Shown: positions 593 through 56,175 of the stretch, piece by piece
Position numbering within the stretch: position 1 is the first letter of the stretch
How the letters are laid out: every line of letters starts with the position of its first letter
Assembly (NCBI GenBank): GCA_017436905.1
Contig: JAFSCF010000011.1
Coordinates: forward strand, 1 to 64,000
Source: Clostridia bacterium
GTDB lineage: Bacteria > Bacillota > Clostridia > UMGS1810
Direction of reading: 5' to 3'
DNA: 64,000 nucleotides
Made by a program: the position numbers and the translations under genes
Notes under the pieces: generated by a model
Databases searched by the model: none
Told to the model about the DNA's origin: nothing
What the model saw: only the letters and a program-made list of their open reading frames with translations

Positions 593-621
593 TTGACTTT
601 AATTTTATGATGTGATATAAT
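593..621 (+). promoter_or_regulatory. Sigma-A promoter of small RNA 1
   Basis: TTGACT (593-598) and TATAAT (616-621) are separated by 17 bp. The predicted start near 628 falls on the first base of the RNA's closing stem. Confidence 0.85.
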
Positions 622-627
622 GCTTTT

Positions 628-778
628 GCCACACAACTGAATAAAAATATCCCGACGTGAGAGAATACTTTGGTAAAAGGTGTTTTCTCTCACTTTAATC
701 TCGCGTTGGGAATAAAGTTGTGTGGCCACAGAGAGGGATTGCGCTTTTTCGGTGCGTTCCTTTCGGACGCACTTTTTT
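628..778 (+). ncRNA. Structured small RNA, paralogue 1 (6S-like architecture, family unassigned)
   Basis: No coding frame lies between the promoter at 593-621 and the terminator at 752-778. The predicted RNA is a rod. Its closing stem is GCCACACAACT (628-638) with AGTTGTGTGGC (716-726). Then come an internal loop starting GAATA, a middle stem TCCCGACG/CGTTGGGA, a right-hand bulge containing TTTAATCT, and an apical stem GTGAGAGAA/TTCTCTCAC with loop TTGGTAAA. A linker and terminator follow. A second copy at 55479-55629 has the same length, loops and plan but different stem sequences. A long rod with a large internal loop resembles 6S RNA, but 151 nt is short for that family and I cannot confirm it. 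Confidence 0.8.
752..778 (+). terminator. Terminator of small RNA 1
   Basis: GTGCGTTCC pairs with GGACGCAC with one bulged base, followed by six T residues. The stem covaries with the terminator of the second RNA copy. Confidence 0.85.
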
Positions 779-845
779 AATTTGTGCGTATATTACATTC
801 GGTTGTCACATACTTATATCTACCTAAAGGGAACTAAGGAAACGG

Positions 846-876
846 AAAAACGGACGATTTTCATCGTCCGTTTTTT
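846..876 (-). terminator. Terminator of ispE (works in both directions)
   Basis: CGGACGAT/ATCGTCCG with a TTTC loop is flanked by A and T runs on both sides. On the minus strand it abuts the ispE stop codon. Confidence 0.85.
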
Positions 877-4215: not shown

Positions 4216-4604
4216 AGAGATATGGGGTTCTTAGGGGGAACCCCTAAGCGGTTTTAGGGGTCCGGAGCAATCCACCCCCGGGACTTTTGGTACTTTTAGT
4301 CATAAAAGTACATATAAAATGTTTTTTAATATTTCTCAAAGGGAGATTCTCCCTTTGAAACCCTCTTGTCGACTGATTACAGAATTGGACAAATTAAACG
4401 CTCGGCGTTCCTGCTCTTTCACCGCCGCACAAAACGGAAACTCATTCCTTGTTGTGCTAAAACGGCGCTATATTTGTAATAGGAAATATAACCGCGCCGT
4501 TTTACGGTTAAGCAGTCACGCTTTCGCTGTAATTTGTTCGCCAATTCTTCCATAGGTCGACCTTTAAAACCATAAACCACTGTGGCTTCATAGCCACAAA
4601 GTTG
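4216..4604 (+). repeat. Interspersed structured repeat, copy B (divergent sequence, same fold)
   Basis: The order of modules is the same as in copy A: GC-rich hairpins, then a GTCGAC-bounded core at 4368-4561. The inner stems differ in sequence but still pair. AAAACGGCGC (4459-4468) pairs with GCGCCGTTTT (4494-4503), where copy A has AAACCGATGC/GCATCGGTTT. CAAAGGGAGA/TCTCCCTTTG replaces CCAAGGGGG/CCCCCTTGG. GTACTTTTA/TAAAAGTAC replaces GTACTTTTG/CAAAAGTAC. This copy is the main evidence that the structure, not the sequence, is kept. Confidence 0.85.
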
Positions 4605-13794: not shown

Positions 13795-14252
13795 ATATGT
13801 ACTTTTGTGACCAAAAGTACCAAAAGTCCTGGGGGTTCGGATTCCCCTAAGAACCCCTTAAAACCATTATGGCTACGAAGCCGCTGTGATTTATGGTTTT
13901 AAAGGTCGACCTATGGAAGAATTGGCAAACAAATTAATGTGAAATTGCTTTTTGGCTTCCAAAACCGATGCGATTAATTCCCTATAACAAATAAAGCATC
14001 GGTTTAGCACGCATAAAATAAGTTTTTATTGCGTGCGGTGGGCAAAGTCAAAAAACAATGAACATAATAATTTGTCCAATTCTGGAATTAGTCGACAAGG
14101 GGGTTGCCAAGGGGGAACACCCCCCTTGGAGAATCTTTTATTAAAAAACATTTTATATGTACTTTTGTGACCAAAAGTACCAAAAGTCCCGGGGGTTCGG
14201 ATTCCCCCAGACCCCTAAAACCGCTTAGGGGATTCCCCCTAAGAACCCCGTG
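13795..14252 (-). repeat. Interspersed structured repeat, copy C
   Basis: This copy is in reverse orientation with the core at 13905-14096 (GTCGAC at both ends) and sequence close to copy A. A second GTAC-hairpin module sits outside the core at 13795-13860, so the hairpin module occurs on both sides. It separates the WalRK-isomerase genes from the yycHI group and fills the whole intergenic stretch. Confidence 0.85.
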
Positions 14253-21098: not shown

Positions 21099-21125
21099 TA
21101 AAATCATATAAATATACTATTGCAA

Positions 21126-21212
21126 TATATTTCCTACGACGGCATTATCCGTATCAGGTCAATGGGTCGGAACTCACAATTCCCTCTCAGCCTTTAATAA
21201 AAGCTCCCCAAA
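21126..21212 (-). ncRNA. TPP riboswitch (THI element)
   Basis: The minus strand reads GGGGAGC, then GGCTGAGAGGG, then GACCCATTGACCTGAT, then GGATAATGCCGTCGTAGGAA. These are the conserved P2/J3-2/P4-P5 blocks of the thiamine pyrophosphate aptamer. The aptamer, terminator and thiT lie in order. Confidence 0.96.
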
Positions 21213-21227
21213 TATTTAATTTTCTTT

Positions 21228-53518: not shown

Positions 53519-55300
53519 ATGAAAACCAACAACAAAAAAGTTCTTGCTTGGCTTGACGAGATGGCTGCCATGACCAGACCTGCCGAAATCGTTTGGATTG
53601 ACGGCAGCGAGGCTCAGCTCGAAGCGTTAAGAGAAGAGGCTTGCGCAACAGGGGAAATGATTAAACTTAATCAGGAAAAACTCCCCGGTTGCTACTACCA
53701 CAGAACAGCAGAAAATGACGTTGCCCGTGTAGAGGACAGAACATTTATCTGCACACCCACCAAAGAAGAGGCCGGTCCCGTAAACAACTGGATGGACCCC
53801 GAAGAAATGTATGCTAAACTTAAAAAACTCTACGACGGTTCTATGGAAGGCCGTACAATGTACGTTATCCCCTATTCAATGGGTCCCGTTGGCTCACCTT
53901 TCTCAAAGATTGGTATAGAACTCACAGACAGCATCTACGTTGTACTTAACATGGCTATTATGACAAGAATCGGTGACGCTGTTATCAACGCTCTCGGCGA
54001 AGACGGTGACTTTGTAAAATGTCTGCACGCTAAAAAAGACGTTAATCCCGAGGAAAGATACATCGTTCAGTTCCCTCAGGATTCTACAATCTGGTCAATC
54101 AACTCCGCTTACGGCGGTAACGTACTGCTCGGTAAAAAATGCTTTGCACTCCGTATTGCATCTTACCTCGGTATGAAAGAGGGCTGGATGGCTGAGCATA
54201 TGCTCATCTTAGGTTTAGAGAACCCACAGGGCGAAGTTAAGTACATCTGTGCTGCATTCCCCTCTGCTTGCGGTAAAACAAATCTGGCTATGCTTATTCC
54301 GCCCGAGTACCTTAAAGAAAAAGGCTACAAAGTATGGACAGTTGGTGACGACATTTCCTGGCTCCGCATCGGTGATGACGGAAGACTGTACGCTATCAAC
54401 CCCGAGGCTGGTTTCTTCGGCGTTGCTCCCGGTACAAGCGAAAAAACCAACTTCAACGCACTTGAAGCAACTAAAAAGAACACAATCTTTACTAACGTTG
54501 CTATCAATAACGACGACAACACCGTTTGGTGGGAAGGTCTTGATAAAAATCCGCCCGTTAATGCTACAGAGTGGAAAGGCGCTCAGGTTAACGGCGTAGA
54601 ATACACAGCAGCAGGTAACAAACTTGCTCACCCCAACTCAAGATTTACTGCACCGGCTATCAACTGCCCATGCATTTCAAAAGAGTTTGAAAACCCACAG
54701 GGTGTGCCGATTTCGGCTATCGTATTCGGCGGCAGACGTGCTAAAACTGCTCCATTGGTATATCAGGCAAGAGATTGGGAACACGGTGTATTCGTAGGTG
54801 CTACAATGGCATCTGAAACAACCGCTGCAGCAGCAGGTGCTGTAGGTGTTGTAAGACGTGACCCAATGGCTATGAAACCCTTCGTTGGTTACAATATGGC
54901 TGACTACTTTGGTCACTGGCTCGAGATGGGCAAAAAGATGGATGCTGACAAAGCACCTAAAATCTTCCACGTTAACTGGTTCAGACAGGACGACGAAGGA
55001 CACTTTATGTGGCCCGGATTTGGCGATAATATGCGTGTTCTCCTCTGGATTCTTGACCGTTGTGCAGGTAAAGTTGACGCTAACGAAAGCGAAATCGGAT
55101 ATCTGCCCAATATGGAAGATATCGACGTTACTGACCTTGACATTGATGCAGACGTGCTTAAAGAACTGCTTACAGTTGATAAAGATGTATGGATGGAAGA
55201 TGTTAAAGACCAGAAAGAGTACTTCGCACAGTTTGGCGACAGACTCCCCGCTGAAATTGCAAAACAACTTGAGATCCTTGAGAATAACCTCAGCAAATAA
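53519..55300 (+). CDS. pckG: Phosphoenolpyruvate carboxykinase (GTP)
   Basis: PckG interconverts oxaloacetate and PEP with GTP/GDP. The 593-residue protein has YVIPYSMGPVGSPFSKIGIE near residue 118, the P-loop kinase motif FPSACGKTNLAMLIPP near 247, and the GTP-type region GVPISAIVFGGRR near 395, WEHGVFVGATMASETTAAA near 420 and FHVNWFRQD near 483. The sequence excludes the ATP-type enzyme. GGAGGAG precedes ATG 53519. It is a single-gene unit with its own terminator and is rich in high-expression codons. Confidence 0.96.
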   Translation: MKTNNKKVLAWLDEMAAMTRPAEIVWIDGSEAQLEALREEACATGEMIKLNQEKLPGCYYHRTAENDVARVEDRTFICTPTKEEAGPVNNWMDPEEMYAKLKKLYDGSMEGRTMYVIPYSMGPVGSPFSKIGIELTDSIYVVLNMAIMTRIGDAVINALGEDGDFVKCLHAKKDVNPEERYIVQFPQDSTIWSINSAYGGNVLLGKKCFALRIASYLGMKEGWMAEHMLILGLENPQGEVKYICAAFPSACGKTNLAMLIPPEYLKEKGYKVWTVGDDISWLRIGDDGRLYAINPEAGFFGVAPGTSEKTNFNALEATKKNTIFTNVAINNDDNTVWWEGLDKNPPVNATEWKGAQVNGVEYTAAGNKLAHPNSRFTAPAINCPCISKEFENPQGVPISAIVFGGRRAKTAPLVYQARDWEHGVFVGATMASETTAAAAGAVGVVRRDPMAMKPFVGYNMADYFGHWLEMGKKMDADKAPKIFHVNWFRQDDEGHFMWPGFGDNMRVLLWILDRCAGKVDANESEIGYLPNMEDIDVTDLDIDADVLKELLTVDKDVWMEDVKDQKEYFAQFGDRLPAEIAKQLEILENNLSK

Positions 55301-55347: not shown

Positions 55348-55478
55348 AAATTACCTCTGCATCGCTCTATTATGGTTTTGGAAAAAATTCAAAACGGGAT
55401 AAAAATTTGAATAAAAAACTTTATAGAAGATTGTGCTATAACAGAGCGGTGCAGGGGTAATTTGTGTTTTTGCGCAAT

Positions 55479-55629
55479 AAAAAAGTGCGCTCCGCTGGAA
55501 TGCACCGAAAAAGCGTTCCACGTACTGTCACATACTCATATCTCACCTTTAAATGCAGATATAAACGGAACGCCTTTTACCAATAGGCATTCTCCGCATT
55601 AAAAGGTGTTACTATTCAAGTATGTGACG
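55479..55629 (-). ncRNA. Structured small RNA, paralogue 2
   Basis: On the minus strand a closing stem GTCACATACT (55619-55628) / AGTATGTGAC (55527-55536) holds an internal loop starting GAATA, a middle stem CACCTTTTAATGC/GCATTTAAAGGTG (one mismatch), a right bulge containing TTTATATCT, and an apical stem with the loop TTGGTAAAA. It ends in GCTTTTTCGGTGC and a terminator (55479-55505). The length is 151 nt, as in paralogue 1 at 628-778, with the same loop elements and different stems. No coding frame is conserved. Confidence 0.8.
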
Positions 55630-55634
55630 TGTAA

Positions 55635-55663
55635 ATTATACCATATTATATTTTAAAGGTCAA
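55635..55663 (-). promoter_or_regulatory. Promoter of small RNA 2
   Basis: On the minus strand TTGACC (55658-55663) and TATAAT (55635-55640) are 17 bp apart. The RNA starts near the first base of its closing stem. Confidence 0.85.
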
Positions 55664-55721: not shown

Positions 55722-56175
55722 AAGGGGTTCTTAGGGGTGAAACCCCTGAGCGGTTTTAGGGGTCCGGGGGAATCCGAACCCCCGGGACTTTTGGTACTTT
55801 TAGTCATAAAAGTACATTTAAAAATTATTTTTAAAATAGATGTTTCTCCAAGGGGGACTTCCCCCTTGGCACCTACGACTCGCTTTGCTCGCTTGCATAA
55901 GTTCCACCAGCCAAATCAAAGATTTGGGGTGTCACTTACCTTGTCGACTGATTACAGAATTGTACAAATTATATGCTCATTGCTTTTTGTCTTTTTCCAC
56001 CGCACGCAATAAAAACTCATTTTATGCGTGCTAAACCGATGCTTTATATGTAATATGGAATTAATCGCATCGGGTTTGGAAGCCAAAAAGCAATTTCACA
56101 TTAATTTGTTTGCCAATTCTTCCATAGGTCGACGTTTAAAACCATAAATCGATATGGCTTCGCAGCCATGATTAA
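55722..56175 (+). repeat. Interspersed structured repeat, copy G (with insertion)
   Basis: This plus-orientation copy has the core at 55943-56133, close in sequence to copy A. About 70 extra bases (around 55870-55940, CTACGACTCGCTTTGC...) sit between the CCAAGGGGG hairpin and the core. It ends with ATGGCTTCGCAGCCAT. Confidence 0.85.

Follow-up and report, generated by a model that had tools for sequence, protein, structure and literature searches.

Copies A and B, two RNAs encoded at positions 628-778 (+) and 55479-55628 (-) of the window (the whole 64,000-nt stretch of DNA analysed), most probably belong as orphans to a large Clostridial family of leader RNAs of the transcription-attenuation type; we put the probability of this at about 0.82. 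The best reading of the family is that it is new, that its members are riboswitch-like attenuators and that it controls a regulon of scattered genes, which encode SLOG proteins, AbrB-like regulators and small, secreted or surface proteins. Computation establishes that the family exists, where its promoters lie, that most members stand before a gene and that four mutually exclusive helices co-vary in cis. The family is apparently undescribed. There was no recognisable match in the main text of three surveys of candidate RNAs (PMC11109978, PMC8632094 and PMC8040213), although their supplementary tables, above all those of PMC8040213, may list it without a name.

Two copies in the window

The first-pass annotation had described two paralogous, promoter-driven, terminator-ended structured RNAs, and this description stands. 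A TTGAC(T/C)-17-TATAAT promoter can be read directly from the sequence before each copy, and the fold z-scores are -6.2 for copy A and -6.7 for copy B, with none of 200 shuffles as good. The boundaries of copy A were retained; the outer end of copy B, previously placed at 55629, lies one base further in, as its first paired G is 55628. Both copies contain GAATA, GGTAAAA and the 13-mer GCTTTTTCGGTGC. This 13-mer has four exact sites in the genome: three lie in family members, and the fourth is a chance occurrence outside the family. A covariance model, CM R1, was built from 11 members. The features are as follows.

593..621 (+): promoter of copy A, -35 TTGACT (593-598), 17-nt spacer, -10 TATAAT (616-621)
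628..778 (+): copy A RNA, predicted start to end of T-run; orphan, with no gene behind it on the same strand; CM R1 140 bits, E 9e-27 in the window (a training-set score, as copy A is one of the 11)
628..638 (+): P1 5' strand GCCACACAACT, pairs with 716-726
639..643 (+): conserved GAATA, 5' asymmetric loop (AATA there in 110 of 145 members)
651..662 (+): P2 5' arm, pairs with 699-710; helix free of conserved sequence
661..671 (+): strand a, the P3 5' strand
672..691 (+): strand b GGTAAAAGGTGTTTTCTCTC, comprising P3 loop, P3 3' strand and pyrimidine toehold
699..710 (+): P2 3' arm
716..726 (+): P1 3' strand AGTTGTGTGGC
731..749 (+): strand c GAGAGGGATTGCGCTTTTT, partner of b or d
752..760 (+): strand d, 5' arm of the terminator and 3' arm of the antiterminator
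765..778 (+): strand e GGACGCAC and T-run (773-778) of the intrinsic terminator
799..846 (-): truncated inverted remnant, like the 3' half (b strand, P2', P1', linker) of another member and resembling copy C (by eye; CM score 13 bits only)
55635..55663 (-): promoter of copy B, TTGACC (55663-55658), 17-nt spacer, TATAAT (55640-55635)
55479..55628 (-): copy B RNA, orphan, convergent with the gene at 53519-55300; CM R1 117 bits, E 5.9e-22 (also a training-set score)
55508..55520 (-): copy B strand c TGGAACGCTTTTT
55485..55506 (-): copy B strands d and e, terminator
55484-55479 (-): copy B T-run

Family size and distribution

The family had been taken to have two members, which is an undercount: in the genome of the window (1.36 Mb in 20 contigs, 88.8% complete) CM R1 gave ten matches, four of them strong. 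Further copies found by similarity search of this genome are C (C11:103131-103275) and D (C14:100339-100489). Matches to CM R1 were present in 15 of the 16 genomes of the same bacterial family, with up to 13 per genome. Among 391 genomes sampled from the class Clostridia, 95 carried homologues, often many per genome and sometimes in tandem. A phylum-wide sample of 398 genomes, which included some members of the class, gave a match in the window's own genome only, under stricter filters that lose weak matches. This supports rather than proves that the family is confined to part of the Clostridia. The named carriers (GTDB contigs) are Oscillospiraceae and Clostridia metagenome-assembled genomes, many from the ruminant gut, and one Ruminococcus sp. 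Pattern matches in Vagococcus, Spirochaetales and Anaerovorax lacked a covariance model match and were rejected as chance. Members measure about 136 to 197 nt, so that the equal length of copies A and B, once offered as an argument for relatedness, is a coincidence.

Four members (L058, L059, L060 and L069) with flanks that are 85-98% alike and with similar P2 occur in four families (f17, f44, f10 and f11); such near-alike copies suggest, from sequence likeness, horizontal transfer.

Conserved fold and promoter placement

That covariation marks a real RNA family, as had been argued from the two copies, was confirmed in the wider set. The covariation score was 0.563; shuffles gave 0.202, and sliding the alignment gave no more than 0.116. 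In the CM-fitted alignment of 54 distinct sequences 94% of the cells pair (shuffles 74%), and 26 of the 30 pairs show two-sided changes (shuffles 18); this alignment leans to the model, and the effect size and the independent duplex tests agree with it. Helices P1, P3 and the terminator covary, P1 at all of its 11 pairs, and uninterrupted P1 is mostly 11-15 bp long across the family. The P2 arms were compared by duplex energy: cognate arms pair at -16.2 kcal/mol and non-cognate arms at -5.6 kcal/mol, the cognate pairing being better in 144 of 145 members. Conserved loops of the sensor type lie within a covarying fold, as is found in riboswitches.

Of 151 members, 137 have a -10 box with five or six of its six positions matched, usually 6-7 nt upstream of the RNA, and an extended -10 TG is present in 113 of 143. 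The predicted transcription start is the first paired base of P1.

Mutually exclusive helices

Five strands, a to e, form a chain of alternative pairings, and each of the four duplexes is stronger between cognate partners. For a:b the energies are -14.1 kcal/mol (cognate) and -8.8 kcal/mol (non-cognate), and the cognate duplex is the stronger one in 142 of 145 members; for c:d they are -12.4 and -8.4 kcal/mol (133/145) and for d:e -15.6 and -9.4 kcal/mol (143/145). Within P1 and P2 the b:c pairing is a pseudoknot, and its values of -16.7 and -10.5 kcal/mol (cognate better in 143/145) are duplex energies; in copy B, b:c reaches -17.3 and a:b -14.8 kcal/mol. The control pairings a:d and b with reversed c were better in 82 and 83 of 145 members. 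When partners were swapped between close relatives only, b:c (p=1.1e-9) and c:d (p=7.4e-10) retained their cis specificity, and the controls gave p=0.21 (a:d) and p=0.41; elements of one genome are related, and these pair tests are not fully independent. Since the cis pairing of b:c survives swaps between close relatives, b:c appears to have been selected as an alternative to a:b, and not to be a side effect of conserved letters.

The antiterminator (c:d) and the terminator (d:e) exclude each other and both co-vary in cis, as expected of an attenuator. The terminator noted in the first pass is present, not as a free-standing end but as one of the two alternatives of an antiterminator/terminator switch. 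When the full RNA is folded to minimum energy, a:b usually stands together with d:e, which is a third combination.

Genes behind the elements

The majority of the homologues stand as 5' leaders before protein genes. The test required, on the same strand, a Shine-Dalgarno sequence and an ORF of 35 codons or more; such a start lies 9-36 nt past the element in 87 of 150 members (58%), most often at 12-13 nt, compared with 466 of 6000 random sites (7.8%) and 43 of 689 other T-run ends in the same loci (6.2%). These 87 elements lie between promoter and start codon; copies A and B do not. Copy C leads a 70-aa protein that starts 44 nt past the element, and copy D a 101-aa protein. The protein behind a weaker copy (C14:21431) is secreted and, as judged by eye, of CHAP type.

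The proteins behind the elements (n=88) fall into many unrelated clusters. Small proteins include DYKxxY-type and Cys-rich clusters; others are YpsA/SLOG proteins, AbrB/MazE-like regulators and zinc ribbons; and the secreted or surface proteins comprise copper amine oxidase N1, BspA LRR, CHAP, M23, SLH and GDSL proteins and lipoproteins. These 88 proteins indicate no common metabolic pathway, and a global cell signal as the trigger is the simplest guess, but only a guess. Searches of anti-phage libraries gave scattered single matches only.

Proposed mechanism

Transcription would begin at the first base of P1, and the nascent RNA would fold into a rod made of P1, the AAUA loop, the sequence-free P2, a pyrimidine-rich 3' loop and P3 (a:b) with its loop GG(U/C)AAAA. 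Linker c, on emerging, would have two candidate partners, b or d. In the OFF state c would invade P3 from the unpaired UCUCU and pair with b, leaving d free for e, so that the terminator forms and transcription stops before the ribosome-binding site of the gene. In the ON state the rod would hold a:b, c would pair with d as the antiterminator and the gene would be transcribed. Which state is reached would depend on a ligand or protein that either stabilises the rod or opens it. We infer both the direction of switching (OFF, b:c with d:e; ON, a:b with c:d) and the strand-displacement route.

If the family works in this way, a regulator that a 1.4-Mb genome carries in as many as ten copies, and that about one in four of the sampled Clostridia genomes contains, would amount to a sizeable unrecognised regulon of gut bacteria. 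The affected genes (surface or secreted, SLOG, AbrB-like and tiny proteins) are poorly understood, and the signal would give them a first functional context. The design would also be a natural example of a linker that displaces a hairpin strand from a single-stranded toehold to set termination.

Copies without a gene

About 40% of the members, including both window copies, have no close ORF and keep the helices of the switch as well as the leaders do. Copies A and B retain all switch parts and lead no gene; they have lost a downstream gene or never had one. A pure cis-regulator leaves such gene-less copies with a full switch unexplained. We entertain, as a tentative extension that is probably incorrect in this full form, that the elements are self-contained promoter and switch cassettes of a riboswitch-like class, which would multiply and move between genomes, have their central helix P2 actively changed to make the copies of one genome differ, and read a general cell signal in uncultured gut Clostridia, with the orphans acting in trans (for example as decoys for a ligand or protein).

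The first-pass annotation had described both copies as structured RNAs with their own promoter and terminator, and the promoter and terminator are indeed there. A family of free-standing sibling sRNAs that act in trans, with incidental downstream genes, would account for the promoter, rod and terminator kept by the gene-less members, and it would fit the tandem arrays, in which every unit spans about 200 bp and has a promoter and a terminator to itself (L080 and L034, for example, hold three units each). The Listeria LhrC RNAs are such a sibling sRNA family, arranged in tandem with own promoters and terminators. However, the start codons behind the elements peak sharply at 12-13 nt, the cis-specific antiterminator c:d is unexpected for free sRNAs and, unlike the LhrC-type siblings, most members here are gene leaders; we consider the sRNA explanation distinctly unlikely. 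The tandem arrays lie at L080:2252-2815, L034:1072-1657, L091:2119-2480 and L144:371-755, and any gene stands behind the last unit.

P2 variation and neighbouring repeats

P2 varies between otherwise near-identical copies. The copies in L090 (3963-4666) are 96% identical in the promoter and 100% in the attenuator, and 46% in P2; the corresponding values are 91%, 97% and 61% in L116 (311-786), 88%, 95% and 57% in L042 (1501-1889), and 93%, 97% and 64% between L153 and L163 from related species. Random pairs share 49% identity in P2. In all four cases both P2 arms changed together and pairing was kept. Pairs with similar flanks shared P2 in 0 of 11 cases within a genome and in 10 of 35 between genomes, a difference that is suggestive only. 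Gene conversion, template switching or diversifying selection are possible causes of the change. To look for other places in the genome that match the P2 arms, copy A was searched at E up to 10; it gave family members and short promoter or terminator stretches only.

A palindromic, MITE-like repeat of about 192 bp with GTCGAC ends occurs in the window at 361-552, 4368-4562, 13904-14096 and 55943-56133, and has several copies in the genome. A second repeat of about 170 bp (190-360) adjoins it, and the composite stands beside copies A, B and D. At L100:2320-2590 (G000:C7:49635-49834) an RNA unit lies within the composite repeat, where other copies of the repeat are uninterrupted; its position is as if it had moved in.

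This unit, the many and partly tandem copies per genome, and the near-identical copies in distant families (L058, L059, L060) would agree with a small mobile or repeat element of MITE type, the hairpin being a by-product of inverted-repeat DNA. The promoter spacing, the start at the first paired base, the covariation of the alternative helices and a start codon at a fixed distance are constraints at the RNA level, and no phage or plasmid match was obtained with the queries used: the exact pattern was absent from 2.9 million viral contigs, and blastn of one member against plasmids and phages gave no match. As a full explanation a by-product of this kind is very improbable; mobility and attenuator function do not exclude each other.

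An inverted P1' and linker motif (TTGTCGCCAAACAA and variants) is found at 799-820 of the window, on the opposite strand 18 nt past the end of copy A, and at about 17 orphan loci (e.g. L096, L098, L104 and L116). It has a near-fixed position, 16-28 nt past gene-less copies and beside the terminator of a convergent gene. At the orphan loci the motif fails to match P1 of the copy beside it. A search downstream of the orphans for a strand that could pair with their own P1' and linker found none; the inverted P1'-like motif of another member was there instead. Between copy B and its convergent gene, at 55380-55470, lies a long imperfect inverted repeat, AATTACCCCTGCACCGCTCTGTTATAG ... ATAGAGCGATGCAGAGGTAATT (by eye).

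Comparison with known systems

Among the nearest known systems are transcription-terminating riboswitches, which likewise combine a 5' leader, a structured sensor-like domain with conserved loops, an exclusive antiterminator and terminator, and several unrelated genes under one RNA family. The present family differs from riboswitches in that it matches no Rfam class, each unit has its own tightly placed promoter, complete units occur in tandem, many copies lack a gene and the main helix P2 has no conserved sequence. It resembles the trp-type attenuator in its chain of exclusive pairings (a:b, b:c, c:d, d:e), but a leader peptide is no commoner than chance: a translated leader ORF was found in 26 of 145 members, below the shuffled control of 41, which argues against ribosome-mediated attenuation of the trp type. 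The ANTAR hexaloop motif has an A at position 1 and a G at position 4; the loops of this family, GG(U)AAAA and UUUUU(C), differ from it when compared by eye. The arrangement of two successive hairpins, the second of which overlaps the terminator, is shared with the ANTAR-controlled dual-hairpin antiterminator of the eut leader (PMC3369931).

The earlier analogy with 6S-1/6S-2 pairs can be dismissed. The long rod and the start at the base of a closing helix that pairs the 5' end are shared with 6S RNA, yet RF00013 matches neither copy at E up to 10, a canonical 6S RNA is present elsewhere in the genome (C18:39957-40152, 79.8 bits, above the cut-off), and the switch and leader position do not fit. 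A search with RF00013 and all other models had been proposed, and it assigned neither copy to a known family. No Rfam 15 family matched the element at gathering score in the window, in both copies (E up to 10), in 20 homologous loci or in two distant homologues (E up to 5), and weak scores with miRNA, sRNA and snoRNA models were all far below the cut-off. A TPP riboswitch is located at 21113-21220 (-) of the window (77.2 bits).
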